Under the pieces are notes generated by a model, which searched no databases, had not been told where the DNA came from, and saw nothing but the letters and a program-made list of their open reading frames with translations. From positions 744,001 through 808,000 of the forward strand of contig NZ_AP022614.1 in assembly GCF_010730575.1 (NCBI RefSeq): 64,000 nucleotides of DNA, written 5' to 3'. Position 1 is the first letter of the stretch; the number at the start of each line of letters is the position of its first letter. Shown in pieces: positions 15,289 to 32,340 of the stretch. A program made the translations under genes and the position numbers. The stretch comes from Mycobacterium parmense (lineage in GTDB: Bacteria > Actinomycetota > Actinomycetes > Mycobacteriales > Mycobacteriaceae).

Positions 15289-16857
15289 GTGGTCTTCGAA
15301 CAGAATCTGGATTTAAAGACGTCAAATTCCTCTTATGTAGTGGCGGGACGGACGGTGGACTCAAAGCGGCCGCATGTCATCGTTATCGGTGCGGGCACCG
15401 CAGGATCCGTGCTCGCGGCACGGCTCAGCGAGGACCCTGAACTATTAGTGACATTGCTGGAGGCCGGCCCCACCGACGACTACGGTGCCGCAGTACTCGA
15501 TCCGAGCCGGGCGCCCGAAGTGTGGTCGACCCTGGCGAACGCGACTATGACCACCATGAGCAGTTCCGCCGGTCCGATCCCCATGGTGCAGGGCCACATC
15601 ATCGGGGGCACCTCCGCCATCAACTACATGGCCACGGTCCGCGGCCAGCCCGAAGACTATGACGCCTGGGAGGCGTCCGGGCTGCCCGGATGGGGATGGT
15701 CTGCGGTGCTCAAAGATTTCATCGCCGCTGAGAAAGATCTCGACTTCGGTCCCTCGCCGATCCACGGCGACGCTGGACCACTGACCGTGAGCCGGTGGAA
15801 ACCCGCCGAACACACCCCCTTCCAGTTGGCGTTCGCCGAGGGCTTGCGCCAGGTTGGCGCGCCGGTCGTCGAGGATGTCAACGACCCGGATCAACTGCCC
15901 GGAATCGGTGTCTTTCCCGCCACACTCGACGCTGCGCGACGCCGTATGACCACGAGCACCGCCTACCTGACTTCCGATGTGCGGGCTCGGCCAAATCTCG
16001 ACATCCGCTCGATGACGTCGGTCTCGGTGATCGTGATCAGCGAGGGTAGGGCAGTGGGAGTCGTTCTCGATACCGGTCAGGAGATCACCGCCGAGGACAT
16101 CGTCGTGGCCTGCGGTGCGCTAGGTTCCCCTACGCTGCTGCTGCGTTCCGGCATCGGACCAGCCGACCAACTCACAGCTCACGGCATAACAGTCCATGCC
16201 GACCTGCCCGTCGGATCAACAATGAGCGATCACCTCGGTGCGGCCCTTGCTTACCATCACGACGCGCCACGCAATGCCACCGGAGGGCCCGCGCAGCCGG
16301 TACTCATCGGTGCATCAGACGGCAAACACATTGACTACCATGTCTTTCCAACCGTTTCACCGATACCCGGTGACACTGCGACCAGCCTGCTGCTCGCCTT
16401 ACTCTTGAGGTCAACAGGCCGCGGAAGCGTGACGCTCGCCGATAACCCCGACGATGCACCGGTGATCACCGCGCCACCATTTCCCGATGATGTCGAGATC
16501 CGACTCGGCCACGCGTTTCGCCAGATCGCAGCCTGGGAACGGTCCCCCGCGGCACGCGAGATCGACTGCCAGCCCGTCGACCCGCACGACCTGACCGCCC
16601 CCGGGGCAGTCGCAGAAGCGTTGGCACGCATGACCATCAGTTACGGACATATGGTCGGCACGTGTCCCATGGGCAGCGTATTGGACGCAGACTGCCGGGT
16701 ACGCGGAATTGAGGGGCTGCGCGTTGTCGACGCATCCTCGATGCCGATCATCCCGGCCGGCAACACCTACCTCGGGTGCGTGATGGTCGCCGAGCGAGTC
16801 GCCCAATCGATGCTCAGCGGTCTCACCGCATCCGGTGAAACCGCGCGAGATCAGTGA
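15289..16857 (+). CDS. GMC-family FAD oxidoreductase
   Basis: This 522-aa glucose-methanol-choline family flavoenzyme oxidises an alcohol, typically to an aldehyde or ketone. The FAD Rossmann motif is in VIVIGAGTAGSVLAARLS, near residues 27-44. The GMC signature is GHIIGGTSAINYM, and the C-terminal nucleotide block is GLRVVDASSMPIIPAGN. The His-rich active-site region lies in YGHMVGTCPMG, near residue 450. The GTG start is supported by the leaderless-type -10 box; the next start, GTG 15355, would remove 22 residues without harming the fold. The closest textbook relatives are choline and alcohol dehydrogenases; the substrate is unknown. Confidence 0.92.
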   Translation: MVFEQNLDLKTSNSSYVVAGRTVDSKRPHVIVIGAGTAGSVLAARLSEDPELLVTLLEAGPTDDYGAAVLDPSRAPEVWSTLANATMTTMSSSAGPIPMVQGHIIGGTSAINYMATVRGQPEDYDAWEASGLPGWGWSAVLKDFIAAEKDLDFGPSPIHGDAGPLTVSRWKPAEHTPFQLAFAEGLRQVGAPVVEDVNDPDQLPGIGVFPATLDAARRRMTTSTAYLTSDVRARPNLDIRSMTSVSVIVISEGRAVGVVLDTGQEITAEDIVVACGALGSPTLLLRSGIGPADQLTAHGITVHADLPVGSTMSDHLGAALAYHHDAPRNATGGPAQPVLIGASDGKHIDYHVFPTVSPIPGDTATSLLLALLLRSTGRGSVTLADNPDDAPVITAPPFPDDVEIRLGHAFRQIAAWERSPAAREIDCQPVDPHDLTAPGAVAEALARMTISYGHMVGTCPMGSVLDADCRVRGIEGLRVVDASSMPIIPAGNTYLGCVMVAERVAQSMLSGLTASGETARDQ

Positions 16858-17939: not shown

Positions 17940-18353
17940 TCATGCGGTCGACGGCACCAGGGCGCTGATGTCCTCGCCTTGGAGAAGCTTTATTGTCAGG
18001 TTCAGGTCGAAATAGTCGGTCCAGCGAGTGATCCTTCCCTCGTCATTGACGACAAAGGTCCCCATGACCGGGATGGCCGGCTTGCTTCCGTCCGGTGCCT
18101 GGATGTAGTCCAGGCGTTCGGTGAGCACCACGGGACCCTCGCTGGCGAGGTTGACGATTTCGAAGGCGTAGGCGTCCGGGAACATCGCGAACTGGGCAGC
18201 CATGTTCTCCACGATGGCGTCTGGCCCGGTGAAGGTGGGCATTCCCACATTCTGATAAGTGGCCCCTTCGGCGAGCAGAGGGCGCAACGCTTCGGCGTCC
18301 CGCTGCTCCATCAAGGCGCAGAACCGGCGGACGACATCGGCTGGCGAAGACAT
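17940..18353 (-). CDS. Limonene-1,2-epoxide-hydrolase-like protein
   Basis: This is a 137-aa NTF2-like protein. The Arg-x-Asp pair at R80/D82 (ERLDY) and the aspartate D116 in WTDYFDLN match the Asp-Arg-Asp catalytic arrangement of limonene-epoxide hydrolase and of mycobacterial EphG. Such enzymes add water to a strained epoxide in one step. The length is close to the family minimum. Its position beside P450, alcohol dehydrogenase and CoA-transferase genes fits opening an epoxide made by the P450 (inference). A general SnoaL-like role cannot be excluded, because the fold is shared. Confidence 0.75.
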   Translation of the reverse strand: MSSPADVVRRFCALMEQRDAEALRPLLAEGATYQNVGMPTFTGPDAIVENMAAQFAMFPDAYAFEIVNLASEGPVVLTERLDYIQAPDGSKPAIPVMGTFVVNDEGRITRWTDYFDLNLTIKLLQGEDISALVPSTA

Positions 18354-18429: not shown

Positions 18430-19545
18430 TCAATGCTCGTGGATGATCACCCCGCGGATGTTGCGGCCGGCGAGCATGTCGTCGTAGGCCTCATTGATGT
18501 CGTCGAGCTTGTACTCGGTAGTGACCGTTTCGTCGAGCAACAGCCTGCCGCTTCGATACAGGCTTATAAGTCGAGGGATGTCGGCCCGCGGGTTGGCTTC
18601 GCCGTACAGGCTGCCCAGGAGGCGTTTTTGGAAGAGTGTGAACAACGTCAGCGGCAGCGTCGGCGTCACGTCGGACATCGACGCCAGCGCGGTGACCACC
18701 ACGGCGCCGCCCTTGCGCACCGCATTGAGCGCGTCGTTGATCATCGCGCCTTCGAGCAGGCCTGGCGTGAGGATGGCCGAGTCGGCCATGACCCCACGTG
18801 TAATCTCGCCAACCAACTGAGTGGCTTCCTCCATCGAGGTGGCGAAATGAGTGGCTCCAAACTGAAACGCTTTGTCCCGCTTGCTCGGCTCGATATCGAC
18901 TACGACGATTTGCTCCGCTCCCGCCAGCCTGGCGCCCTGGATGGCGCCGCTGCCGATCCCTCCGCAGCCGAGCACGAGTACTACGTCGCCGGGACTGACG
19001 TTTGCGGTATTGACTGCCGAACCCCAGCCGGTGGTTACGCCGCAGCCGAGCAGACATGCGCGCGAGAGCGGCACATCGTTGTCGATCTTGACCACTGAGG
19101 CTTCCGACAAAACGCCCCATTGCGCGAAACTGCCGACGCCTGAGAGGGCTCCGATGCCCCGACCTCTGGCCCGGCGCCGGAAGGTGCCGTCGGCTTGGAC
19201 TCCCGCGAGGATGATCGCCCCGTAATCGCAGAGGTTTTGACGACCCGTGGCGCACCAGCGGCAGCGACCGCACGCCGGCAGAAAGGAGGTGACCACGTGG
19301 TCTCCCACCGCTATATCGCGCACTCCCGGACCGACCTCGTGGACGACGCCCGCCCCTTCGTGTCCACCGATCAAGGGAAAACTCACCCCTAACATGTCGC
19401 CCGTACGGATGTGGTGGTCGGAATGGCAGAGGCCGGTGGCTTCGAACTCGACGAGTAGCTCGCCTTCCTGCGGCGGGTCGAGTTCGATCTCCTCAACGGA
19501 CCACTTCTCATTCAGCCCCCACAGGACTGCTCCCTTGGTCTTCAT
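18430..19545 (-). CDS. NDMA-dependent (mycofactocin-linked) alcohol dehydrogenase
   Basis: A 371-aa zinc alcohol dehydrogenase. Catalytic zinc ligands are in GLCHSDHH and GHEGAG. The structural zinc cysteines are in CGRCRWCATGRQNLC, and the Rossmann motif is GCGGIGSGAIQG. The N-terminal MKTKGAVLWG and C-terminal RNIRGVI blocks are characteristic of the nicotinoprotein family. That family holds NAD tightly and passes electrons to NDMA in vitro, and to mycofactocin in the cell. The ATG at 19545 follows GGAG and overlaps the ferredoxin stop by 4 nt. The longer frame to 19617 is not used. A paralogue lies at 59053-60183. Confidence 0.92.
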   Translation of the reverse strand: MKTKGAVLWGLNEKWSVEEIELDPPQEGELLVEFEATGLCHSDHHIRTGDMLGVSFPLIGGHEGAGVVHEVGPGVRDIAVGDHVVTSFLPACGRCRWCATGRQNLCDYGAIILAGVQADGTFRRRARGRGIGALSGVGSFAQWGVLSEASVVKIDNDVPLSRACLLGCGVTTGWGSAVNTANVSPGDVVLVLGCGGIGSGAIQGARLAGAEQIVVVDIEPSKRDKAFQFGATHFATSMEEATQLVGEITRGVMADSAILTPGLLEGAMINDALNAVRKGGAVVVTALASMSDVTPTLPLTLFTLFQKRLLGSLYGEANPRADIPRLISLYRSGRLLLDETVTTEYKLDDINEAYDDMLAGRNIRGVIIHEH

Positions 19546-19742
19546 GGCGACTCCTTGACAATGTGTATGGCACGCTCGGGGCAGTTGGCGATTGCGTTGA
19601 GTGCCCGGTCTTCCCATCCGGGAGGAATATCTTCTACGGTGACGAAGGCGGTCCCTTCGTCGTCGATGTCGAACAGTTCGGGATACGCCGCGTAACAGCG
19701 GCTATGGCCCTGACACATTTCCCTCTCGACATCAAGTTTCAC
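19542..19742 (-). CDS. Ferredoxin, 3Fe-4S type
   Basis: A 66-aa acidic ferredoxin with cysteines at 10, 16 and 54 (EMCQGHSRC and NCPERA), the C-x5-C...CP pattern of P450 redox partners. It overlaps the alcohol dehydrogenase start by 4 nt and begins 5 bp after the CoA-transferase stop, so the three are one operon. The P450 at 23298-24524 is its likely client, although it lies on the other strand. Confidence 0.92.
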   Translation of the reverse strand: MKLDVEREMCQGHSRCYAAYPELFDIDDEGTAFVTVEDIPPGWEDRALNAIANCPERAIHIVKESP

Positions 19743-19747
19743 GCTGT

Positions 19748-22096
19748 CTAGTCCAATCCGCCCGGTCTGGTCCCGATGACTCTGTTTTGTGTGAGCGCTG
19801 CAATCGATGCTGCGTCGAGGCCGAGTAGGTCGCCGAGGATGTTTGCGCTGTGCTGCCCCAAGGTCGGCGCCGCTGACCGATACCAGGTGTCAACGCTGCG
19901 GTACTTGAAGGGAATCGCCGGCACGTGATGTGTTCCCACGATGGGATGGTCGACACATTCGAAAAAGCCTCGCGCGGCCAGCTGAGGGTGCATCGAACCC
20001 GCCCTGGCGTCAGCCAAATCCGCAGCCGGAACGCCATGTTGAATGAGTAACTCTGCGGCGGCCGAGGAATCGTGCTGGGCAGCCCATTGCTCGAGGTGCT
20101 TATCGATCACATCGTGTGCCCGGACGCGCCCTTCGTGGGTGTCCAGTGCGGGGTCATTCGCCCAATCCGGTTCACACAGAGCCGACTTCAGCAGACGCCA
20201 TTGCTCGTCCGTTGCGACCGAGATCGCCAGCCACCGCTCGGTCCCCGCGCACGGATAGAGCCCCTGCGGGGCGGCGTCGCGGCTGCGATTTCCCAACCGC
20301 GATATCAGGTTCCCGGAGGCGGTGAACTCGACAACCTGCTCGGCGGCCGCGTTGAGGGCGGACTCGACCATCGATACTTCGATGAGTGCCCCCTGGCCGG
20401 TCTCGTCGCGGCGTCGGAGTGCGGCGAGCATGACGAATGCGGAATGCATTCCTGCCAGTGGGTCACAGGGACCCCGGGGGATGCGGGGCTGGTCGTATTC
20501 GTGGCCGGTCACCCACGCCATCCCGGTCATCTGTTCCATCGTTTGCGCGAAACCCACATTATTGCGCCATGGTCCGTCGAGCCCGAACGCAGGCATGCGG
20601 ACCATGACGATTCGAGAGTTCTGCTCACTGAGGGCCTCCCACGTGATGGCGAAGTTGTCGAAGACGCGTGGCGAGAAGTTCTCGACCAGAATGTCCGAGC
20701 ATTTCACGAGGCCCAACAACAACTCTCGCCCTTCGGGCGAGGACAGGTCGAGGGTGAGACCTCGCTTGTTGGCGTTGGTCGCCAGGTACATCCCCGACCG
20801 CTCCCACCACTGAGGCTGAGCGGCGAACGCCGCGGCCGCCATCCGTGCGCCGTCAGGGTGGTCCGTCGACTCCAGGTGGATGACCTCAGCGCCGAGTGCC
20901 GCGAGGATGTGGGTGGAGGAGGGTCCGGCCCACCACGCTGTCGCGTCGAGAATTCGTATGCCCTCCAGAGGAAGTCGCGGTGCATGGTCGGCGGCGGTCG
21001 CAATCCTGCTGTGGGCGGGCACTTCTGTCATCTCGCCGAGCGGGGGAGCGCCGGCGGTGGCGGAGGGTCGTCGGCCATCGATTCGGTAGGGCGCCAACGG
21101 GTGGGTGAACCTTCCGTCGAAATACGTCCCCCACACGCCGCGCGCCGCGAACTGGGGGTGGCCCAACACTGTCTGGCCATTGTTGACCGGTGAGACGGGG
21201 ATCCGCAGATCGGAGGCCAACGCGACAATCTCGTCCGTGCGACGTTGCGTCGTCCACTCTCGCACAATCTGATTCCAATCCTCCCGGCGTTCCCAGCGCG
21301 TCGTGGCGAGTGCCCACGCCGGGTCCTCGTCGAGCAGGTCCAGCCGGCCGATCATCGCCAGGAAAGATTCGAATTGTTGGCGGGTATTGGTGTTGAAGCC
21401 CACCCACCCGTCCGCGGTCGGTTCGATGGAAGGGATTTCGACCTGCCGGGCCGGCAGGGTCAAAGGGGGACGACCGGCCAGCTCGTGATAGAGGTCGGCG
21501 AATCCGCTGGCGCTGAGGTGACACGTTTCCAACAGCGAGCAGTCGACGATTTCGCCTTGGCCGCCGAGTTGGGCCCGACGCAGCGCGCCAAGCGCGCCGA
21601 CGGCGGCATAACTGGCCATGACCCATTCGAAGACTCGACCACCCGCTTGAATGGGCGGTTGGTCCGGACGGCCACGCAACGCCAGGGTTCCGCTCTCGGC
21701 CTGGATCGTGAACTCCGTCGAGGGTCGGTCCCGGTACGGTCCGGTCAACCCGTACGGAGACAACGCCACGATCACCAGGTGTGGCGCACGCCGTAGAAGC
21801 GCCTCGCGGTCGAGCGCCTCGGGGCCGAGAGAATCGACGAACACATCGGCGGAAACGATCAATGGCTCGAGAGCGGTCAGCGAAGTGCCAACGATTGAAC
21901 GCTTGCCGGCGTTCAAGAATTTGAACAGCGCGCCGTCTTCGCTTCGATCGCCGAACGTTCTGCGGCGGAACGGATCCCCGTCGGGGTCCTCTATTTTTAT
22001 GACCTCCGCTCCGAGGTCGGCGAACAACTTGGTGCAGTACGGACCGGCGATTTCCGTCGCCCACTCGACGACACGAACCCCACGCAGAGCGTTCAT
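19748..22096 (-). CDS. Tandem class III (CaiB/BaiF) CoA-transferase
   Basis: This 782-aa protein holds two complete class III CoA-transferase modules. The first begins MNALRGVRVVEWATEIAGPY, and the second begins near residue 370 (PLEGIRILDATAWWAGPS). Family members act as interlocked dimers of about 400-aa chains and use a catalytic Asp. In the second module that Asp is present (PCDPLAGMHSAF). At the aligned position of the first module a Glu stands instead (RVFEWVMASYAA). A fused dimer with one altered site is therefore likely. It would move CoA from an acyl-CoA donor to a carboxylic acid made by this pathway. Its promoter region contains the TetR-type palindrome at 22264-22278. Confidence 0.9.
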   Translation of the reverse strand: MNALRGVRVVEWATEIAGPYCTKLFADLGAEVIKIEDPDGDPFRRRTFGDRSEDGALFKFLNAGKRSIVGTSLTALEPLIVSADVFVDSLGPEALDREALLRRAPHLVIVALSPYGLTGPYRDRPSTEFTIQAESGTLALRGRPDQPPIQAGGRVFEWVMASYAAVGALGALRRAQLGGQGEIVDCSLLETCHLSASGFADLYHELAGRPPLTLPARQVEIPSIEPTADGWVGFNTNTRQQFESFLAMIGRLDLLDEDPAWALATTRWERREDWNQIVREWTTQRRTDEIVALASDLRIPVSPVNNGQTVLGHPQFAARGVWGTYFDGRFTHPLAPYRIDGRRPSATAGAPPLGEMTEVPAHSRIATAADHAPRLPLEGIRILDATAWWAGPSSTHILAALGAEVIHLESTDHPDGARMAAAAFAAQPQWWERSGMYLATNANKRGLTLDLSSPEGRELLLGLVKCSDILVENFSPRVFDNFAITWEALSEQNSRIVMVRMPAFGLDGPWRNNVGFAQTMEQMTGMAWVTGHEYDQPRIPRGPCDPLAGMHSAFVMLAALRRRDETGQGALIEVSMVESALNAAAEQVVEFTASGNLISRLGNRSRDAAPQGLYPCAGTERWLAISVATDEQWRLLKSALCEPDWANDPALDTHEGRVRAHDVIDKHLEQWAAQHDSSAAAELLIQHGVPAADLADARAGSMHPQLAARGFFECVDHPIVGTHHVPAIPFKYRSVDTWYRSAAPTLGQHSANILGDLLGLDAASIAALTQNRVIGTRPGGLD

Positions 22097-22263
22097 CGCT
22101 TCGCGACTTTCCGCGTCAAGGTCGTCGGAAGTGAGTTACTCGCGACGATGAGTGCACACACGCCACTTCTGTCCTCACGCTCGTGCCGATCGAGCAGGGT
22201 GTCTTGCATCCGCATGGTTGCGGCTTGGCTGGGATCGACGCTAGCGACGGGAAAGCCAGAGTG

Positions 22264-22278
22264 TCAAGTGCGACTCGA
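22264..22278. promoter_or_regulatory. Putative TetR operator, copy 1
   Basis: TCAAGTGCGACTCGA reads, on the other strand, as TCGAGTCGCACTTGA. It shares the frame TCRAGT-N3-ACTYGA with the sites at 23139 and 24601, and is followed by ATAAC on the outside as they are. It lies about 170 bp before the CoA-transferase start and just after the TetR stop codon. Confidence 0.7.
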
Positions 22279-22311
22279 TAACCCTGGCCGCGGTGGAGTT
22301 CGTCGGTGCTT

Positions 22312-22998
22312 CTAGTCGGCCGCACGCACCTTCGAGGCCCGCTGAACCCGCCCGCCTCGCTTGGCCGGCGGCTCGGTCGATGTGCTTACGCCTTTGGCGA
22401 GGATCTGCGAACCAAGTTCGATCTGCGCGCGGATGTCTGACTCGCCCGTACCGAACCAGCGTGGTCCGAGGCTCGTTGTGAAGATGATGAAATTCGCCAG
22501 CAGCTCGGCGAACAGGTCGGCGTCGACGTCGGCGCTGATCTGCCCCGCGGCTTGGTAGTGGCGGACGCCCTCGGCGATAACAGCCGTACGGCGTGCGTGA
22601 TTGGGTTGCAGCACCCGCAGCGAGAAGTCCGGATCTGATAACGCCCGACCGGAAATGTCCCAACCGGGAACGCCGCTGTCCCGGTCATCGAGCCTTAACC
22701 TCGCAAAGAAAAGCTGCTCGACATAGTCCTCGAAGCGCGCAGGCAGGGCCGCCACGACTTGCTCCTCGGCCTCACTGACGAGGTCGGCGATCTGTCGAGA
22801 AACGACCTGCTCGAAGATGCCTTGCTTGTCCCCGAAGTAGTGAAACAGCATTGCCTCCGAGCAGTCGGCGCGACGGGCGATCTCCTTCGTCGCCGCGGCC
22901 GCGTATCCCGCTTCGGCAAAGACCTCAGCAGCCGCTTCAAGGAGGGCCCGTTGTTTGCCATCCTTGTCGCGAACTCGCCGCCGCGCGCCTGTGGTCAT
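22312..22998 (-). CDS. TetR family regulator, candidate master regulator of the cluster
   Basis: A 228-aa TetR protein counted from ATG 22998 (MTTGARRR). The N-terminal HTH is ATKEIARRADCSEAMLFHYF at about residues 35-54, followed by a typical all-helical ligand domain. The longer frame to 23019 adds seven residues. It sits between the CoA-transferase operon (same strand, downstream) and the divergent P450 gene. The palindrome at 23139-23153 lies in the divergent promoter region and copy 1 just beyond its 3' end, so it probably represses itself and the neighbouring operons until a pathway intermediate, often an acyl-CoA, binds (inference). Confidence 0.9.
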   Translation of the reverse strand: MTTGARRRVRDKDGKQRALLEAAAEVFAEAGYAAAATKEIARRADCSEAMLFHYFGDKQGIFEQVVSRQIADLVSEAEEQVVAALPARFEDYVEQLFFARLRLDDRDSGVPGWDISGRALSDPDFSLRVLQPNHARRTAVIAEGVRHYQAAGQISADVDADLFAELLANFIIFTTSLGPRWFGTGESDIRAQIELGSQILAKGVSTSTEPPAKRGGRVQRASKVRAAD

Positions 22999-23138
22999 CA
23001 CACATACTTTAGCGAGCACTCGTCGAATGAGGGAAAGCTCGCACGCGTGCGTCCTTCGCCAACCCGCGGCGTTTCGGCCTCATCCTCCGTGTTCGCGTGC
23101 AAGCCGGCGCGTTGAACGAGGGTGGACCCATGATGTTA

Positions 23139-23153
23139 TCGAGTGCGACTTGA
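23139..23153. promoter_or_regulatory. Putative TetR operator, copy 2
   Basis: TCGAGTGCGACTTGA lies between the divergent TetR and P450 genes. Preceded by GTTA, it matches copies 1 and 3 across about 19 positions. The 6-base arms TCGAGT and ACTTGA differ by one symmetric change. Confidence 0.72.
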
Positions 23154-23297
23154 CTCCACGTAGCCGACGATTTACTGTGCTGCCAAAGGAAATTTCGGCG
23201 TGTGCGAGAAATCCGAGGGCCGGCGCAGATGGCGCGCTGACCGCTGGCGTTGTCCCGAGCTCGGCATGGCCGCGTGCGGGCGCGGAAAGGACTACCC

Positions 23298-24524
23298 ATG
23301 GTGAGTAAATCACCGGAGGAACACGCCCGGAACCTCGACCTTCGCCACGAGGATTTCAACGATCAAGAATTCCTCTATGAGGTTTATGCGGTGATGCGGG
23401 AGAACGGATCGTTCAGTCACCAGGAAGTCCCGTTCCTGGGTCCTACTCCCGGGGGCGCGTGGGTCGCCACCCGCTACGGCGACTGTTACGAGATCCTGCG
23501 TGACTGGCGCAGCTTCTCCAGCAAGCCACTGGGGCTGGGGGGCAACCCGATGTCATTTGGAGACATCGTGATTACCTTGGATCCTCCACGGCAGCAACAG
23601 CTTCGCAAAGTTCTCAACCCCTATTTTTCCCCGGGCCGGATGAAGGAGCTGGAGCCCCACGTGCGCGGGGTCACCGATGGGTTGATCGACAACTTCATCG
23701 AGTTGGGCCGCGGCGATCTCGCCGACGTCGCATGGCAGCAACCTGGGATCGTATTCTTCCGCCATCTACTCGGCATGCCCGTCGAGGACGTGCCGCTCTA
23801 CATCCAGACAGCCGACCTGGCGATCAACGGTGAAAGCGAAGAGGTCCGAAACGGTTCGATGACGAATCTGTACCTCCGCGTGCGCGACGAGATCGACAAA
23901 CGTCGAGGTGAACCGCCGCGTGACGATCTCATCGATGTTTTGCTCGCCGCCGAGATCGAAGGCGAGAAATTGAGCTTCGACGACGTTGTCGCGAATGTGA
24001 TGCTGCTGGTGCAAGCGGGACTCGAAACGACCTCCAGTGCAATGTCGTTCGCCTTCTTCTATCTGGGCACCCATGCTTCGGAGCGCGACCGACTGGTGCG
24101 CGAATCCGCGTTGATGCCCACGGCAATAGAGGAATTCATCCGGTTCGCCGGTTCGGTGCACGGACTGCATCGCTCAGTCGCGGAGGAGGTTGAGCTAAGC
24201 GGCCACAAGTTCTGCCCCGGCGAGACGGTCGTCGTGAACTATGCGGCCGCCAACCGCGACGCACGCGAATTCGACGAACCCGACAAGTGCATTCTCGACC
24301 GGCAGACAAACCGCCACCTCGGGTTCGGGGCCGGCGTCCATCGCTGTCTGGGCTCCAATCTGGCCCGACTCGAGTTCCGGGTGGGTGTCGAACAAACCCT
24401 GAAGCGGATACCCGATTACGCCATCCCGCCCGGTTCGAAAGTTGATTTTCATGGTAACTCGGTCACTCGCGGGTACCGCGCCCTGCCCGTCGTCTTCACG
24501 CCTGGTGCCCGCGTCGGCCAGTGA
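23298..24524 (+). CDS. Cytochrome P450
   Basis: A 408-aa soluble bacterial P450. The I-helix motif is QAGLETTSSA (about 24012-24041), ExxR is in EEFIRF (about 24130-24147), and the heme Cys is in FGAGVHRCLG (about 24322-24351). The I-helix has Glu (LETT) where Asp is more usual (xDTT), a common variant. ATG 23298 is preceded by GGAAAGGA; the longer frame to 23250 is not needed. It is divergent from TetR, with operator copy 2 between them. It probably starts the pathway by hydroxylating or epoxidising the substrate, with electrons from the ferredoxin at 19542. Confidence 0.93.
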   Translation: MVSKSPEEHARNLDLRHEDFNDQEFLYEVYAVMRENGSFSHQEVPFLGPTPGGAWVATRYGDCYEILRDWRSFSSKPLGLGGNPMSFGDIVITLDPPRQQQLRKVLNPYFSPGRMKELEPHVRGVTDGLIDNFIELGRGDLADVAWQQPGIVFFRHLLGMPVEDVPLYIQTADLAINGESEEVRNGSMTNLYLRVRDEIDKRRGEPPRDDLIDVLLAAEIEGEKLSFDDVVANVMLLVQAGLETTSSAMSFAFFYLGTHASERDRLVRESALMPTAIEEFIRFAGSVHGLHRSVAEEVELSGHKFCPGETVVVNYAAANRDAREFDEPDKCILDRQTNRHLGFGAGVHRCLGSNLARLEFRVGVEQTLKRIPDYAIPPGSKVDFHGNSVTRGYRALPVVFTPGARVGQ

Positions 24525-24578
24525 GGGGGCGGCAGACAACCGCCCATATCAACTCGCAGCCAGTGCAATAGCGGATCT

Positions 24579-24615
24579 CCAAGTGCGGCTCGAGAAGTTA
24601 TCAAGTGCTACTTGA
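24579..24615. promoter_or_regulatory. Putative TetR operator, copy 3 with degenerate copy 4
   Basis: TCAAGTGCTACTTGA at 24601-24615 is a perfect palindrome (TCAAGT-gct-ACTTGA). A second, weaker copy at 24579-24593 (CCAAGTGCGGCTCGA) matches copy 1 at 13 of 15 positions. The centres are 22 bp apart, two turns of helix, as expected for cooperative binding on one DNA face. They lie upstream of the amidohydrolase-aldehyde dehydrogenase-CoA-transferase operon. Confidence 0.7.
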
Positions 24616-24752
24616 CAGCGCGCCGGAGCCGCTCCTAGCATCAGGTCAGCCGGTAATCGGTATCCGTCTTGCGCGACGACGCCCCCATTGCTGCGCCCGT
24701 TGCCCGCTCGCCCAGCCCGACGAACCGGTTCGGTGAAATCAGGGAGGAACCC

Positions 24753-25958
24753 GTGGACAAGCAAGATCTTCAATGGATGATCTCCGTCGATGACCACATC
24801 ATCGAGCCACCGAACCTATGGGTCGACCGCGCGTCGGCGGCCGACCGAGATCGAGTGCCACACGTCGAGCGCATCGACGGCGTCGATACGTGGGTCTACG
24901 ACCGAGCGCGGGCGTCGGTGCTGGGCATCTTGGTGGCGGCTCACCAGAGGCCGGCCGAGTACTCCCCGTTGCCAGTGAATTACGACGAGATGCCTCGCGC
25001 GTACTTCGACCCGATAGCCCGCATCCCTGACATGGACGAGGATCATGTGATCGCGGGATTGAACTTTCCGTTCTTCCCCCGGTTCTGTGGTCAGATGTTC
25101 GCCCACCTCGGTGACCGCGACCTAGGTCTCAAGTGCGTGCGGGCCTACAACGACTTCGTCATCGACGAGTGGTGTGCGGCGGCGCCCGGTCGCTACATCC
25201 CGATGGTCATCATTCCGTTGTGGGATACCCGTTTGGCGGTCGAGGAGACGCAACGTTGCGCCGGCAAGGGCGCCAAAGCCATTGCCTTCTCGGAGAATTT
25301 GCACCCGTTGGGATTTCCGTCCATCCACTCGGGGGCTTGGGACGACTTCTTCGCGGCGGTGAACGAGACGAAGATGCCGCTGTGCACGCACATCGGGTCG
25401 TCGTCGGTCAGTCCCACCACGTCGCCCGACGCACCTTTCGGGGTTCAGGCGGTCAACATCAACCTCAATCTGGCGAATTCAACCACGGATTGGCTGTTCT
25501 CGGGCAAGCTGCAGAAGTACCCCGACCTGAAGATCGTGCTGGCCGAGGGCGGCATCGGCTGGATCCCCTACCTCATCGAGCGTGCAGAACATGTCGCCGC
25601 CGACTACCAATACCTGCGCGCCAACAACTGGGCCGTTGATCCGGCCACGATGCGCTTGACCCCCGTACCCACCGACCCCGACATTTTCCCGGAGTCTCCG
25701 CGTCAGCTCTTCCGCGATCACATGTACGGCTGCTTCATCGAGGACGACTTCGGGGCGGCCAATCTGGACTCCATCGGTGTCGACAATGTGATGATCGAGA
25801 CGGATTATCCGCATACCGACAGCCTCTGGCCGAACTCCCTTCAAGCCGCTCACAAGGCACTCGACGGCCGGTCCGACCTTGACAAGTACAAAGTGCTGCA
25901 GGGTAATGCTCGCCGGGTCTTCGACTTTGAGCCCGCCCCATATCCGACGCCGACGTAG
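24753..25958 (+). CDS. Amidohydrolase family 2 protein (ACMSD-like fold)
   Basis: The 401-aa metal-dependent hydrolase belongs to the amidohydrolase-2 group. The N-terminal metal motif is degenerate (SVDDHIIEPPNLW), as usual in the actinobacterial branch. The histidine in CTHIGSSS and the aspartate in METDYPHTD-like IETDYPHTDS complete the site. The family includes decarboxylases and hydratases as well as hydrolases. GTG 24753 is preceded by AGGGAGGAA and is preferred over the open frame from 24669. It is first in an operon with aldehyde dehydrogenase (18 bp later) and CoA-transferase. The reaction is not known; hydration or C-C bond cleavage of a CoA-bound ring is plausible (inference). Confidence 0.9.
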   Translation: MDKQDLQWMISVDDHIIEPPNLWVDRASAADRDRVPHVERIDGVDTWVYDRARASVLGILVAAHQRPAEYSPLPVNYDEMPRAYFDPIARIPDMDEDHVIAGLNFPFFPRFCGQMFAHLGDRDLGLKCVRAYNDFVIDEWCAAAPGRYIPMVIIPLWDTRLAVEETQRCAGKGAKAIAFSENLHPLGFPSIHSGAWDDFFAAVNETKMPLCTHIGSSSVSPTTSPDAPFGVQAVNINLNLANSTTDWLFSGKLQKYPDLKIVLAEGGIGWIPYLIERAEHVAADYQYLRANNWAVDPATMRLTPVPTDPDIFPESPRQLFRDHMYGCFIEDDFGAANLDSIGVDNVMIETDYPHTDSLWPNSLQAAHKALDGRSDLDKYKVLQGNARRVFDFEPAPYPTPT

Positions 25959-25976: not shown

Positions 25977-27500
25977 ATGCGGGAGTACCAGAGCTTCATC
26001 GACGGTAAGTGGTTGAGCGACAACGCCGTCGGCACCATCGACGTCATCGATCCGGCGACCGAGGAGGTGATCGGCCGAGTCGTCGACGGTGGACCGAAGC
26101 AGGCGGCCATGGCGATCGAGGCTGCCAGGCGGGCTTTCGACGAAGGGCCGTGGCCGTGGATGTCGGTCCGGCAGCGGGCGAAGATCATCAAGCGGTTCGC
26201 CGACATCCTCGATGACCGCAAAGCGGAACTTCGAGAGCTGATCGTCGCCGAGATCGGCTCGACCGCCTTCATCACTGACCTGATTCAGGTTGGGGGCGCT
26301 ATCGAGGCGGCCCACTACTACGGCGAGTTCGTCGAACACGATGTGACGTGGGTGGAGACACCGGGCGGGCCCGTGGTTTCGCCGACCGGCCTGGGTGGCG
26401 TGACGGTGGTCCGCGAGCCGGTCGGGGTGGTCGGAGTCATCACGCCGTTCAACTTTCCCTTCTCGATCAACATTCAAAAGTGCCTGGCCGCCTTGGCCGT
26501 CGGCTGCACTGTGGTGCTCAAACCCCACCCGTGGACCCCGATGAACGCCCTGGAGCTGGCCAAGGTTGCTGAGGAAGCGGGCCTTCCGCCCGGTGTGTTC
26601 AACGTCGTTGTGGGCGGTGCCGACGTGGGAGAGGAGCTATGTACGCACCGCGGCGTCGACATGATCGGATTCACCGGTTCGACCGCGACCGGTCGACGCA
26701 TTCGTGAACTATCTGCTGCCACGATGAAACGTACGCAGCTGGAACTCGGCGGCAAAAGCGCGCACATCGTGCTCGACGATGCCACCGAAAGTGATGTCGC
26801 CGGAATAGGGTTCGGACAGGTGCTGATGCATGCCGGACAGGCGTGCACGGTCACATCGCGACTTCTCCTGCCCGAGCACCTGCTCGAGGCGTATGTCGAT
26901 GGCGTGAAAGCCATGGCTCCGATGATCACCGTCGGGGATCCGCGTGATCCCGCCACTGTGGTCGGGCCGCTCATCAGGGATCAGCAGCGACAACGAGTTG
27001 AGTCCTTCGTGCAGTCGGGCCTACAGGAAGGCGCGCGCCTATTGGTTGGTGGCAAACGTCCCGGACATCTCGAACGCGGCTTCTACTACGAGCCGACGGC
27101 ATTCGTCGACTGCCGCAGCGACATGCGCTTATGCCAGGACGAGGTGTTCGGGCCTGTGCTGGCAGTGCTGACCTATCGTTCCGAAGAGGAAGCGATCCGC
27201 GTCGCGAACGACTCCGTCTATGGTCTGGCAGGTCTGGTGATGACCCGCAACGCCGCAAAGGGTTTCAACGTCGCCAGGCAGATCCGAACCGGCACCATCA
27301 TGGTGCAGACTCTCGGGCCCGCCGCCGACCTCGGCGCCAATCCGGGTGGGGGGCAGGGTCCCGGCTGGTCCTTGCCGGCGCGCGGCATGTTCAACGGCGG
27401 GGGACCGTTCGGCGGATTCAAACAAAGTGGACTCGGCCGTGAGCAGGGGCGCTGGGGCTTTGAGGAATACACCGAGCTGAAATCAATCACCGTGATGTAG
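25977..27500 (+). CDS. Aldehyde dehydrogenase (NAD(P)+-dependent)
   Basis: A 507-aa ALDH. Signatures are VITPFNFPFS, the glycine motif FTGSTATG, the general-base glutamate in LELGGKSA, the catalytic cysteine in HAGQACTVTS, and EVFGPVLAV. A glycine-rich stretch near residues 460-475 (GANPGGGQGPGW) is longer than in most relatives. It lies 18 bp after the amidohydrolase. It would oxidise the aldehyde made by the NDMA-dependent alcohol dehydrogenase to the acid used by the CoA-transferases. Confidence 0.94.
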   Translation: MREYQSFIDGKWLSDNAVGTIDVIDPATEEVIGRVVDGGPKQAAMAIEAARRAFDEGPWPWMSVRQRAKIIKRFADILDDRKAELRELIVAEIGSTAFITDLIQVGGAIEAAHYYGEFVEHDVTWVETPGGPVVSPTGLGGVTVVREPVGVVGVITPFNFPFSINIQKCLAALAVGCTVVLKPHPWTPMNALELAKVAEEAGLPPGVFNVVVGGADVGEELCTHRGVDMIGFTGSTATGRRIRELSAATMKRTQLELGGKSAHIVLDDATESDVAGIGFGQVLMHAGQACTVTSRLLLPEHLLEAYVDGVKAMAPMITVGDPRDPATVVGPLIRDQQRQRVESFVQSGLQEGARLLVGGKRPGHLERGFYYEPTAFVDCRSDMRLCQDEVFGPVLAVLTYRSEEEAIRVANDSVYGLAGLVMTRNAAKGFNVARQIRTGTIMVQTLGPAADLGANPGGGQGPGWSLPARGMFNGGGPFGGFKQSGLGREQGRWGFEEYTELKSITVM

Positions 27501-27574: not shown

Positions 27575-28747
27575 ATGGAACTGCTCAGGGACGTCCGGGT
27601 CCTCGAGGTGTCACTGTTCTCCACGGATGCACTGGGCGGGCATCTGGCCGACCTCGGCGCAGAGGTGATCAAGGTGGAGCCGCCTGGCGGCGGTGGTTTC
27701 CGCGGTTCGGCGGTTTCAGGCGGCGAGTTGCAGGACTCTCACTGGAACCGTGGCAAGAAGAGTGTGGCAATCAACCTGAAAACCACTGAGGGTCAAGATG
27801 CTTTTCGCCGCCTGGCCGCGACGTCGGCAGTGGTGATCGACGGACTGCGGTACGGAACCGCGCACCGGCTCGGGTTCAGCTACGACGACATCGTCGCGGT
27901 CAACCCGACGGTCGTCTACTGCGTGCTCAACGGCATGGGCAGCTATGGGCCTTACACCCGATTGCCCACCCACGGGCTGTCCTTCGATTGTTTTGCCGGC
28001 TTGAGTCCGCCGATAATCGATGCCGATGGAACGCCACGCCTTTCGGGGGCGGCCACAGGGACGACGGGTGTTCTGGCGGGACCGCTGTACGCAGCGATGG
28101 GCGTACTCGCCGCACTGCACGCCGCCGGGCGCGACGGCAAGCCGCAGTACGTCGAAGTAGCGCAGGTCGATGCGGCGATCAACTGGAACTTTCAGCACCT
28201 CACGGCCTTGGCGAACGGTCACCCGGCCTACGGTGAGGGAATCCGCGCTTCGCTTCGCTACCAGTACTACCGAACCGGCGAGGGCAATTACGTGGTGTTC
28301 AACGCTTTGGAGGACAAGTTCTGGCTGAGATTCTGCGAGTCACTCGACAGGATGGATCTTTACGAACCGGGACGCCAGAAGCCGGGGACGGATCTCGAGG
28401 CAGAGGCATGGCTGCGCGAGGAGTTAACGGCCATTTTTGCAAGCCGCACACGCAAGCAATGGACCGACTTCTTCATCGCGACCGATATCGCAGGGGCCCC
28501 GGCATTTTTGGAAGCAGACCTGTTCGACGACGACCACGCGAAGGCTCGCCGACTCGTCTACGAGCAGGCCCAGCCGGATGGACCGCCGCAGCGATTGATC
28601 GGAACGTGCATCAAGACCAAACCTGACGAAAGATTCGCACCGCCGGCAGCGCCACACGTTGGGCAGCATACGGAGGAGTTACTCGGCGCCCTGGCGGGCT
28701 ACGACGTGGCCGGAATGGAGCGCCTTCGTTCGGCGGGGGCAATCTGA
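27575..28747 (+). CDS. Class III (CaiB/BaiF) CoA-transferase
   Basis: A 390-aa single-module class III CoA-transferase. Family features are the N-terminal LADLGAEVIKVEPPGGGGFR, NRGKKSVAINLKT, and the C-terminal PPAAPHVGQHTEELL. At the place of the catalytic Asp, aligned on the following GPLYAAMGVLAAL, a Gly appears (TTGVLAG). It may therefore lack normal transferase activity or be paired with another subunit. It starts 74 bp after the aldehyde dehydrogenase in the same operon. Confidence 0.88.
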   Translation: MELLRDVRVLEVSLFSTDALGGHLADLGAEVIKVEPPGGGGFRGSAVSGGELQDSHWNRGKKSVAINLKTTEGQDAFRRLAATSAVVIDGLRYGTAHRLGFSYDDIVAVNPTVVYCVLNGMGSYGPYTRLPTHGLSFDCFAGLSPPIIDADGTPRLSGAATGTTGVLAGPLYAAMGVLAALHAAGRDGKPQYVEVAQVDAAINWNFQHLTALANGHPAYGEGIRASLRYQYYRTGEGNYVVFNALEDKFWLRFCESLDRMDLYEPGRQKPGTDLEAEAWLREELTAIFASRTRKQWTDFFIATDIAGAPAFLEADLFDDDHAKARRLVYEQAQPDGPPQRLIGTCIKTKPDERFAPPAAPHVGQHTEELLGALAGYDVAGMERLRSAGAI

Positions 28748-29002
28748 ACACCGGTGCATGCCAGTTGATCGGTCGCATCGGCCGGTGGCGTGTCCGAGCT
28801 GTTCAATTCTCGGACTCCTTCCGTCGAGACGATCGTCGCCTCGACCCTCGGTATCCGGCAAAGCGGGAACCGGTCAGCGGCGATGTCGCGCCGGTCGAAC
28901 TCGAGGCTGCCGCTTAGGCTCAACGTCGGAGACCAGCCGCCGGCGGAGTTCTCACACCGGAAAGTCTTGCCCGCCGGTGATTCAGACAGTAGAAGACCTT
29001 GT

Positions 29003-30338: not shown

Positions 30339-30395
30339 TGGTCGTAAATGTCCGTATCATCGCCCATCGGGGCGCCGACGGAAGTTGAGACATCG

Positions 30396-31649
30396 ATGAA
30401 CGTGAAAAGCTCCGCTCCCAACGTCTTCGACGCTGGGCTCCCCACGTTCGATTACGGCCTCACCGCCACTCCGTACGACATCCTCGAGGATGTCCGGAAG
30501 GCGCAATCGTGCGCACCCATCGCCATTGGGCCGCTCGGCCCGGAGATCCTGTCCTACGAGATGGCTCGGGAAATCCTGCGCGACGACAGGTTCCGCATGC
30601 CGCCCGGCATCACGCTGGCGGCGCAGGGCATCACCTCGGGCCCGTTGTACGACAAAATGATGAGCAGCCTCCTGGGCCTCGAGGGCGCGCCACACACTCG
30701 CTTACGCAAACTGGTGTCAAGAGCGTTTACTCCCCGCGCAACGTCGTGCCTTCAAGACACGATTCATGAGGTGGTGAACGAGCTGATCGATCAGGTGGTG
30801 GAAGCCGGTCGGTGCGACGTCGTGACCGACATCGCACGGCCCTATCCCACCCCCATCATGTGCGCGCTGATAGGCGCGCCTCGGGAAGACTGGCAGCACT
30901 TCGCACAATGGACCGACGAAATCTTCAAAGCTTTCAATTTCCAGACCGACGTCACCTTCGATGAAGCCGAGATCATGCGGTCGTGGAGCGAACTGGACGC
31001 CTACGTCGACGACATGGTCGCCGCACGCCGAAAGAATTTGACCGATGACCTGCTGTCTGAGCTCATACGCGCCGAAAGCGACGGCGACCGACTGAACCTC
31101 GACGAACTCCGCATGCTGGTGGCGGGCTTTCTGATGGCGGGAACGGACACGACGCGAAATCAGCTCGCCGCGTCGGTACAGGTGCTTTGCGAGCATCCGG
31201 ATCAATGGGCGAGGCTGGGCGAGCAACCAGAGCTTGCGATGCAGGCGGTTGAGGAGAGCATGCGCCACTCACCTGCGGTCTGCATCGCACCGCGCGCCGC
31301 CACCGAAGATGCCGAATTCGGCGGCTACATGTTTCCGGCAGGGACCTTCGTAGTGGTGAATACCTTTGCAGCCAACCGTGATCCAGCGATCTATGACGAT
31401 GCGGATCGCTTCGACATCGCGCGCAAGAACTTGCCCGCCATTCTGACCTTCGGCGGTGGTGCCCACTACTGCCTGGGGGCCAACCTCGCGCGCCGGGAAT
31501 TGGCGGAAGCACTCACAATCCTCACCAGACGTCTCCGTGCAACCCATCGCGTCGGTCCGGCCCCGTGGAAATCCCTGCTGGGAATGACCGGCCCAACAAC
31601 ACTAGAGATCGGGTTCGAGGCCCAACGGCTCGTGACGGCGGATGCGTAG
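30396..31649 (+). CDS. Cytochrome P450
   Basis: A 417-aa soluble P450. The I-helix is MAGTDTTRNQ (about 31135-31164), ExxR is EESMR, and the heme Cys is in FGGGAHYCLGAN (about 31449-31484). ATG 30396 is preferred; ATG 30348 would add 16 residues. The stop overlaps the downstream TetR gene by 8 nt, so the two form one unit under the inverted-repeat promoter region. Its relationship to the P450 at 23298 is not close enough by eye to call a recent duplicate. Confidence 0.92.
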   Translation: MNVKSSAPNVFDAGLPTFDYGLTATPYDILEDVRKAQSCAPIAIGPLGPEILSYEMAREILRDDRFRMPPGITLAAQGITSGPLYDKMMSSLLGLEGAPHTRLRKLVSRAFTPRATSCLQDTIHEVVNELIDQVVEAGRCDVVTDIARPYPTPIMCALIGAPREDWQHFAQWTDEIFKAFNFQTDVTFDEAEIMRSWSELDAYVDDMVAARRKNLTDDLLSELIRAESDGDRLNLDELRMLVAGFLMAGTDTTRNQLAASVQVLCEHPDQWARLGEQPELAMQAVEESMRHSPAVCIAPRAATEDAEFGGYMFPAGTFVVVNTFAANRDPAIYDDADRFDIARKNLPAILTFGGGAHYCLGANLARRELAEALTILTRRLRATHRVGPAPWKSLLGMTGPTTLEIGFEAQRLVTADA

Positions 31650-32340
31650 TCGCGGCTGGGCGGGATCAACGCCCGGCTCCGACGAAGAGGCAATCGCCCG
31701 CATTCTGAATGCGGTAGACGAAGTCGTAGCCGAACACGGACCAGCGATACGCCTTGCCGACGTCGCCCGGAAACTCGGCGTCACTCGCCAGACTGTATAC
31801 CGCTACTTCCCCAACGCTGACGCGCTGCTCATCGCCAGCGCAATGCGTGCGGTCGACGGGTTCATCGACCAGGCCGCAGAACACGTCAGTGGACACAACG
31901 ACCCAGTCACCGCAATCGTCGAAAGCGTGTCGTTTGGAATCGAGAATCTCGCCGGTGATCCACAGCTGGAAAAGCTGCTGACCCGGGGGCACGAGGGCGA
32001 AGCCGTCACCTCGCTGACGTCCGACACGGCCGTCACAATCTGTTTGTCTGTCTTTCACCGCTTCAATGTGGATTGGAGGCTGCACGGTTACGACAGCGCT
32101 GCGCTCAGTGAACTCGCCGAAATGACCCTGCGCACAGTACAGTCCATCCTGACCGATCCCGCACAGCCACCCCGCGAGGGAATCGAACTACGCCGGTTCA
32201 TAACTCGATGGCTCGGTCCTGCGATCCTCTATCCGCGGATGGCGTCGCTATCGACCCACGAACGACACGCGTCGTCGGACGGGCACGTCGAAGCAGAAAG
32301 ACGTACCTCGCTGTCCCACAGTGGTCCCCACGAAGGTTGA
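31642..32340 (+). CDS. TetR family regulator
   Basis: A 232-aa TetR protein. The HTH is LADVARKLGVTRQTVYRYFP near residues 38-57, followed by a helical ligand domain. The start overlaps the P450 stop by 8 nt, an arrangement often seen for a locally acting repressor. The 13-bp inverted repeat upstream of the P450 is its most likely target. No operator resembling the 22-24 kb palindromes is seen here. Confidence 0.88.
   Translation: MRSRGWAGSTPGSDEEAIARILNAVDEVVAEHGPAIRLADVARKLGVTRQTVYRYFPNADALLIASAMRAVDGFIDQAAEHVSGHNDPVTAIVESVSFGIENLAGDPQLEKLLTRGHEGEAVTSLTSDTAVTICLSVFHRFNVDWRLHGYDSAALSELAEMTLRTVQSILTDPAQPPREGIELRRFITRWLGPAILYPRMASLSTHERHASSDGHVEAERRTSLSHSGPHEG

Follow-up and report, generated by a model that had tools for sequence, protein, structure and literature searches.

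A probable small TetR regulon with its own predicted operator in an oxidative gene cluster of Mycobacterium parmense

The DNA examined here is a stretch of 64,000 nucleotides from Mycobacterium parmense (contig NZ_AP022614.1, positions 744,001 to 808,000), referred to as the window, and coordinates are counted from its first letter. At approximately 18-29 kb it contains a cluster of genes for predicted oxidative enzymes, arranged in three operons around a gene for a TetR-family regulator. A small DNA signal stands at the start of each of the three gene sets, and through it one repressor very probably switches an oxidation pathway. The conservation of this signal, its geometry relative to the promoters and its phyletic pattern support the proposal, made in a preliminary description of the window, that these genes make up a small regulon under TetR, with an operator of its own; the comparative support is unusually strong. 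The three operons share the site, as had been claimed, and the regulon is made up of 8-9 conserved genes, with TetR counted, rather than the ten or so first suggested.

TetR very likely acts as a local repressor, covering the -35 boxes of the three operons by way of the predicted operator. A TetR dimer, or a pair of dimers, would bind TTATCRAGT-N3-ACTTGAC, the right half of which doubles as the start of the -35 box at the three promoters, so that the bound repressor would exclude RNA polymerase. Blocking the polymerase from an operator that overlaps the -35 box is an ordinary mode of action of TetR repressors. Release by a compound of the pathway, most likely a substrate, an acid or a coenzyme A (CoA) ester, would then turn on the three operons together: operon 1, with genes for a tandem CoA-transferase, a ferredoxin, an alcohol dehydrogenase and a SnoaL-like protein; operon 2, the cytochrome P450 gene alone; and operon 3, with genes for a PF04909 oxygenase-like protein, an aldehyde dehydrogenase and a CoA-transferase. 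The regulator itself (228 residues; 22312-22998, reverse strand) has the N-terminal helix-turn-helix domain of the TetR family (PF00440, expect value (E) 1.2e-14, residues 26-72 of a 235-residue open frame), and its AlphaFold2 model (predicted local distance difference test score 85.2) has the all-helical, two-domain TetR fold. Its fold matches included no informative nearest ligand-bound relative.

The whole window contains three exact copies of TCRAGT-N3-ACTYGA, at 22264-22278, 23139-23153 and 24601-24615. Each of these TCRAGTNNNACTYGA copies lies within a promoter region, and in dinucleotide shuffles of the window (n = 100) the mean number of exact TCRAGTNNNACTYGA matches was 0.00, with none of the 100 reaching three. 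The corresponding operators are each 19 bp long. Operator 1 (TTATCGAGTCGCACTTGAC; 22263-22281, reverse strand, palindrome at 22264-22278) precedes the CoA-transferase/ferredoxin/alcohol dehydrogenase operon; operator 2 (TTATCGAGTGCGACTTGAC; 23136-23154, forward strand, palindrome at 23139-23153) lies in the TetR/P450 intergenic region; and operator 3 (TTATCAAGTGCTACTTGAC; 24598-24616, forward strand, palindrome at 24601-24615) precedes the amidohydrolase-like gene. The preliminary description had placed the palindrome only in promoter regions and had counted a fourth, degenerate copy 22 bp before operator 3. The former is correct for the three exact copies, whereas copies as poor as the fourth (CCAAGTGCGGCTCGA; 24579-24593, forward strand, 2 mismatches) also lie within genes, for instance at 24011 in the P450 gene and at 24851 in the amidohydrolase gene. 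With up to two mismatches allowed, there are 13 matches in the window, including that at 24579, against 4.87 expected, and some are intragenic; the fourth site is therefore indistinguishable from background by sequence alone, and is doubtful.

At all three window promoters the right half-site provides the start of the -35 box, giving the form TTATCRAGTNNNAC[TTGACW]-N17/18-TANNNT. In the direction of the operon, each site reads TTATCRAGT-N3-AC-TTGACW, with TANNNT another 17 or 18 bp on; the mycobacterial promoter elements are TTGACW at -35 and TANNNT at -10. Predicted promoter 1 (22238-22267, reverse strand, toward the CoA-transferase) has TTGACA at 22262-22267, of which TTGA is in common with operator 1, an 18-bp spacer and TAGCGT at 22238-22243. 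Predicted promoter 2 (23150-23178, forward strand, toward the P450) has TTGACT at 23150-23155, a 17-bp spacer and TACTGT at 23173-23178, and predicted promoter 3 (24612-24641, forward strand, toward the amidohydrolase) has TTGACA at 24612-24617, an 18-bp spacer and TAGCAT at 24636-24641. Judged from these -10 boxes, transcription would begin near 22231, 23185 and 24648, respectively.

Across the 5.95-Mb genome there are six exact copies of the 15-mer, three of which are outside the window operators and fall inside or at the edge of long open frames with high G+C content at third codon positions. The composite of operator and -35 box, TCRAGTNNNACTTGACW, has exactly three perfect places in the genome, all of them the window promoters; at one mismatch the sole further place is the opposite strand of operator 3, and at up to two mismatches 31 rows were returned, against 49 in the backward control. 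A genome-wide regulon was sought and not found: within one mismatch TCRAGTNNNACTTGACW has no site beyond the three promoters and that opposite strand, and the remaining exact 15-mers belong to open frames or their margins. The regulon is thus local, since the exact motif joined to a -35 box is found nowhere else in the genome.

Related clusters were compared after reduction of 60 to 39 non-redundant ones by removing 21 duplicates (the same TetR DNA with a 200-bp flank); 34, the window among them, have the gene order of the window, and five have another. Locus L080, a 48-residue match in a metagenome-assembled genome of the Coriobacteriales, was dropped, as were the 3.7-kb loci L081-L083, which are represented by longer stretches or a named copy. 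Of these 34 clusters, 32 have an exact copy of site 1 in front of the CoA-transferase, and all 34 have one with at most one mismatch. Site 2, between TetR and the P450, is exact in 32 of the 33 scorable clusters and within one mismatch in 33 of 33, with L072 left out (it has an insertion between TetR and the P450, and its site has one mismatch). Site 3, for which L036 was left out as its amidohydrolase block is located elsewhere, occurs just where the P450-amidohydrolase gap is large enough for a promoter: in all 11 clusters whose gap is 215-254 bp, and in 0 of the 22 whose gap is 16-89 bp. The conservation in related genomes that had been put forward as a check on the proposal is borne out. 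The paired arrangement before the amidohydrolase gene fared differently: a second copy at the 22-bp distance is exact in 1 of the 11 clusters having site 3, and the degenerate copy was rejected as a cooperative second operator of general occurrence.

The same 34 clusters contain 76 exact sites in the 20,811 bp of their three intergenic regions, and their coding sequence, 327,819 bp in all, contains none. Over 78 sites the identity of the half-sites is 0.97-1.00, a figure conditioned on the match by which the sites were found; the figures for the flanks are not so conditioned, and are 0.99-1.00 for the TTA on the left and 78 of 78 for the C to the right of the palindrome. Identity in the 37 bp farther upstream is 0.54-0.59. 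Promoter geometry is equally constant: TTGAC followed by TANNNT 17 or 18 bp on, directed toward the operon, accompanies 78 of the 79 scored sites, the sole exception being an extra upstream copy in L045, and the background chance of TANNNT at either spacing is 0.004.

Five loci, L076 (M. nebraskense), L079 and L114-L116, encode a TetR that is 60-69% identical and have their genes in another order, in which the alcohol dehydrogenase gene is divergent from TetR, and the P450 and amidohydrolase genes are mutually divergent (only the first part is seen in L079). In the four with all three promoters in the stretch (L076 and L114-L116) there is an operator at each promoter, and those of the P450 and the amidohydrolase are exact, in opposite orientation and 33-34 bp apart. 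As the rearranged loci keep operators at their own promoters, the operator follows the promoters when genes move. Two genomes have distant copies. In G108 a second copy of the regulon P450 (L160, 7914-9351; 81% identity to the P450 described here), 22 kb from the cluster, retains operator and promoter; in G080 a P450-amidohydrolase-aldehyde dehydrogenase-CoA-transferase block (L159, 4478-10128) is separated from tetR by 35 kb and keeps both operators, and a more diverged P450 copy (82%) remains next to tetR.

TetR orthologs are present in 17 of 198 Mycobacterium genomes and, with a related query, in 34 of 396 (own genome counted); none was found at E 1e-18 outside Mycobacterium among 401 genomes of the family (31 genera) and 298 of the order (76 genera). 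Judged by this TetR, the nearest named relative is M. bohemicum, at 98% identity, in a comparison from which records of the genome itself may be missing. The exact 19-mer TTATCRAGTNNNACTTGAC was counted 75 times, in 34 of the 396 Mycobacterium genomes, and the TetR carriers are the same 34 genomes; the 19-mer is absent from all 362 genomes without this TetR, and the backward control was found in 0 of 396. The two draws of 396 genomes were taken as one set on the basis of their equal size and the listed genomes, 342 TetR-negatives being unlisted. Five of the 34 TetR genomes (G809, G863, G871, G874 and G979) were counted in these genome-level tests and not as whole clusters. Of the TTATCRAGTNNNACTTGAC places, 72 of 75 are within 4 kb of tetR, and the three distant ones belong to the second P450 copy of G108 (22 kb) and to the P450 and amidohydrolase of the G080 block (35-37 kb). 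A close amidohydrolase homolog is found in 29 of 297 genomes, all 29 among the 34 TetR carriers. Operator and cluster go together.

Several observations weigh against a TetR repressor acting at these sites. In the rearranged clusters the operator of the alcohol dehydrogenase is exact in L115 and has one mismatch in the other four of five, and its promoter is without TANNNT at 16-19 bp; TTAAAT is found at 17 bp in all five. The 15-mer with up to one mismatch is not enriched genome-wide (38 places, against 32 in the backward control), and the mismatched 15-mer is therefore a poor probe. The genomes are related, so the coincidence of two 34-genome sets does not have the probability of independent trials; and because TetR, enzymes and sites are co-inherited, their joint distribution across genomes does not by itself identify TetR as the protein that binds the site. 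In both gene orders tetR is divergent from a regulated promoter, and TetR may therefore act back on its own expression; a distinct promoter for tetR was not found, and autoregulation is thus unproven.

The position of the operator bears on the sign of regulation. By the inferred promoters the palindrome is centred at about -39, which is open to an activator as well, and TetR could use the same operator, adjoining the -35 box, to recruit polymerase. However, the -35 boxes of the window are near-perfect (TTGACA or TTGACT), and activator-dependent promoters seldom have near-perfect -35 boxes. Repression is favored over activation because these boxes are near-consensus; TetR-family regulators are, moreover, often repressors according to the accessible text of PMC4482099, and activation is considered improbable.

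A slightly smaller probability still is given to the palindrome being recognized by a regulator encoded elsewhere, with the adjacent TetR controlling something else. The linkage of site and TetR is compatible with this, as their co-occurrence could reflect inheritance of the whole cluster. A widely held regulator would, however, be expected to have sites elsewhere, and the 19-mer is in none of the 362 sampled genomes that lack this TetR; in addition, one regulated promoter is divergent from TetR whichever of the two gene orders is present. The idea that no regulator is involved, and that a conserved promoter and TCGA-rich sequence gave rise to the palindrome by chance, has next to no credibility, for although the palindrome overlaps the -35 box in part and its near matches are not in excess across the genome, its left half lies outside the -35 and -10 elements and is nonetheless far better conserved (0.97-1.00) than the sequence upstream (0.54-0.59), and the exact composite is confined to these promoters. 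The preferred explanation thus remains repression by the local TetR.

The genes under this predicted control suggest a sequence of oxidations. In operon 1 (reverse strand), the tandem class III CoA-transferase (19748-22096; 782 residues; PF02515) has halves that resemble the two benzylsuccinate CoA-transferase subunits (9fn0 chains A and B), and looks like a fusion of them. The catalytic Asp of this class is taken here to be that of GDSNTGMH in YfdW; in a three-sequence alignment the C-terminal half has CDPLAGMH at this place, and an Asp is absent from this column in the N-terminal half. It is followed by a small ferredoxin (19542-19742; 66 residues) resembling those that accompany P450s (4id8; also 8amq and 6mcw, single chains that combine a ferredoxin with a P450 or bear the name P450), and by an NDMA-dependent (N,N-dimethyl-4-nitrosoaniline-dependent; mycofactocin-type) alcohol dehydrogenase (18430-19545), which scores 544.6 bits for TIGR03989, where the cut-off is 440. 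A SnoaL/ketosteroid-isomerase-like protein (17940-18353; 137 residues; weak TIGR02096 match below cut-off) has its gene beside that of the alcohol dehydrogenase, in the same orientation, in 14 of 17 clusters compared, and this gene is probably a later member of operon 1. Operon 2 encodes the cytochrome P450 (23298-24524, forward strand; PF00067), with the motifs AGLETT (I-helix), EFIR (ExxR) and FGAGVHRCLG (heme); the ferredoxin of operon 1 is its possible partner, and the common operator would switch both on together.

Operon 3 (forward strand) begins with the 401-residue PF04909 protein (24753-25958), whose label 'amidohydrolase' in the preliminary description is probably wrong: its six ligands and its likeness to DitZ and PtmU3 point to a dinuclear oxygenase. 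By sequence and predicted fold its closest relatives are Rhodococcus rhodochrous DitZ (188 bits; template modeling (TM) score 0.86) and PtmU3 (91 bits; TM score 0.73). Residues D13, H15, H213, E265, D351 and H354 align with AibH2 D25, H27, H211, E265, D337 and H340, as given in the accessible part of PMC7782822, and are invariant in 30 aligned sequences (query counted); the nearly invariant D356 is at the place of AibH2 D342. PtmU3 is described, in the portion of PMC10127204 available, as having a diiron site and hydroxylating diterpenoid-CoA intermediates. Because of the aligned ligands and the DitZ/PtmU3 likeness a dinuclear oxygenase is expected here, although the other PF04909 proteins of related fold are hydrolases or decarboxylases. 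As a separate observation, 5,566 of 7,998 scored candidates match this protein at E 1e-30, and other genes named as amidohydrolases may therefore encode oxygenases. The operon continues with an aldehyde dehydrogenase (25977-27500; PF00171) and a class III CoA-transferase family protein (27575-28747; 390 residues; PF02515), which in the three-sequence alignment seems to be without the family Asp.

Together the enzymes suggest that a methyl or hydrocarbon group is oxidized to an alcohol, an aldehyde, an acid and a CoA ester, and that the PF04909 protein carries out a second oxygenation. A dedicated two-oxygenase pathway, in which the P450 and a DitZ/PtmU3-type dinuclear metal oxygenase acting on a CoA ester serve for a terpenoid-like or other cyclic hydrocarbon that these mycobacteria encounter, and in which TetR senses a CoA intermediate, is put forward tentatively; the terpenoid-like substrate is a guess prompted by PtmU3 and by the name DitZ.

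Neighboring genes were considered and left out. The hydrolase at 28790 had no match at E 1e-20 in 16 other clusters, some of whose stretches are short. A second P450 (at 30348) and a second TetR (at 31642) form a pair (30348-32340, with an 8-bp overlap) that recurs as such in related clusters, on the upstream side in L050 and L053 and on the downstream side in L057, L060 and L068; its place varies, or the pair was not found. At 15289-16857 there is a GMC (glucose-methanol-choline) oxidoreductase resembling the mycofactocin dehydrogenase MftG, which was below the NCBIfam cut-off (283.7 against 387.45) and had no match in 16 other stretches.

The closest known counterpart is KstR2, likewise a TetR-family repressor with a small CAAG/CTTG palindrome in three promoter regions near its own gene and with catabolic targets, as set out in the accessible text of Kendall et al. 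2010 (PMC3068626). Its motif there, AnCAAGnnCTTGnT, has two bases between CAAG and CTTG, and the present one has five, a 3-bp shift in spacing that upholds the earlier statement that the two differ; TCRAGT and ACTTGA are 3 bp apart in 78 sites. The TetR described here is, furthermore, a different protein, 23-24% identical to KstR2 (fold matches 4w1u and 4w97), and its orthologs were found within Mycobacterium only. The mycobacterial TetR regulators with predicted motifs in the part of Balhana et al. 2015 (PMC4482099) available also have a divergent TetR, a shared intergenic palindrome and enzyme targets; the table seen there is of M. tuberculosis (Rv) regulators, and none of 32 loci with the present TetR is titled M. 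tuberculosis. With the PtmU3/DitZ/AibH2 oxygenases, as covered in the accessible text of Liu et al. 2024 (PMC10811679), the 'amidohydrolase' shares the six AibH2 ligands and a DitZ/PtmU3-like fold. It differs in that the clustered ferredoxin is P450-type, and no Rieske ferredoxin is among the annotated neighbors, which are not the whole window. No published account of the cluster or operator was found in the open-licence literature, judged by titles.

The type of switch is familiar, and this particular regulon has apparently not been described previously. With one regulator, one 19-bp operator and three promoters, it is ready to be tested. The operator offers a reporter with which to seek the inducer directly, and hence the compound on which the P450 and the oxygenase-like 'amidohydrolase' act.

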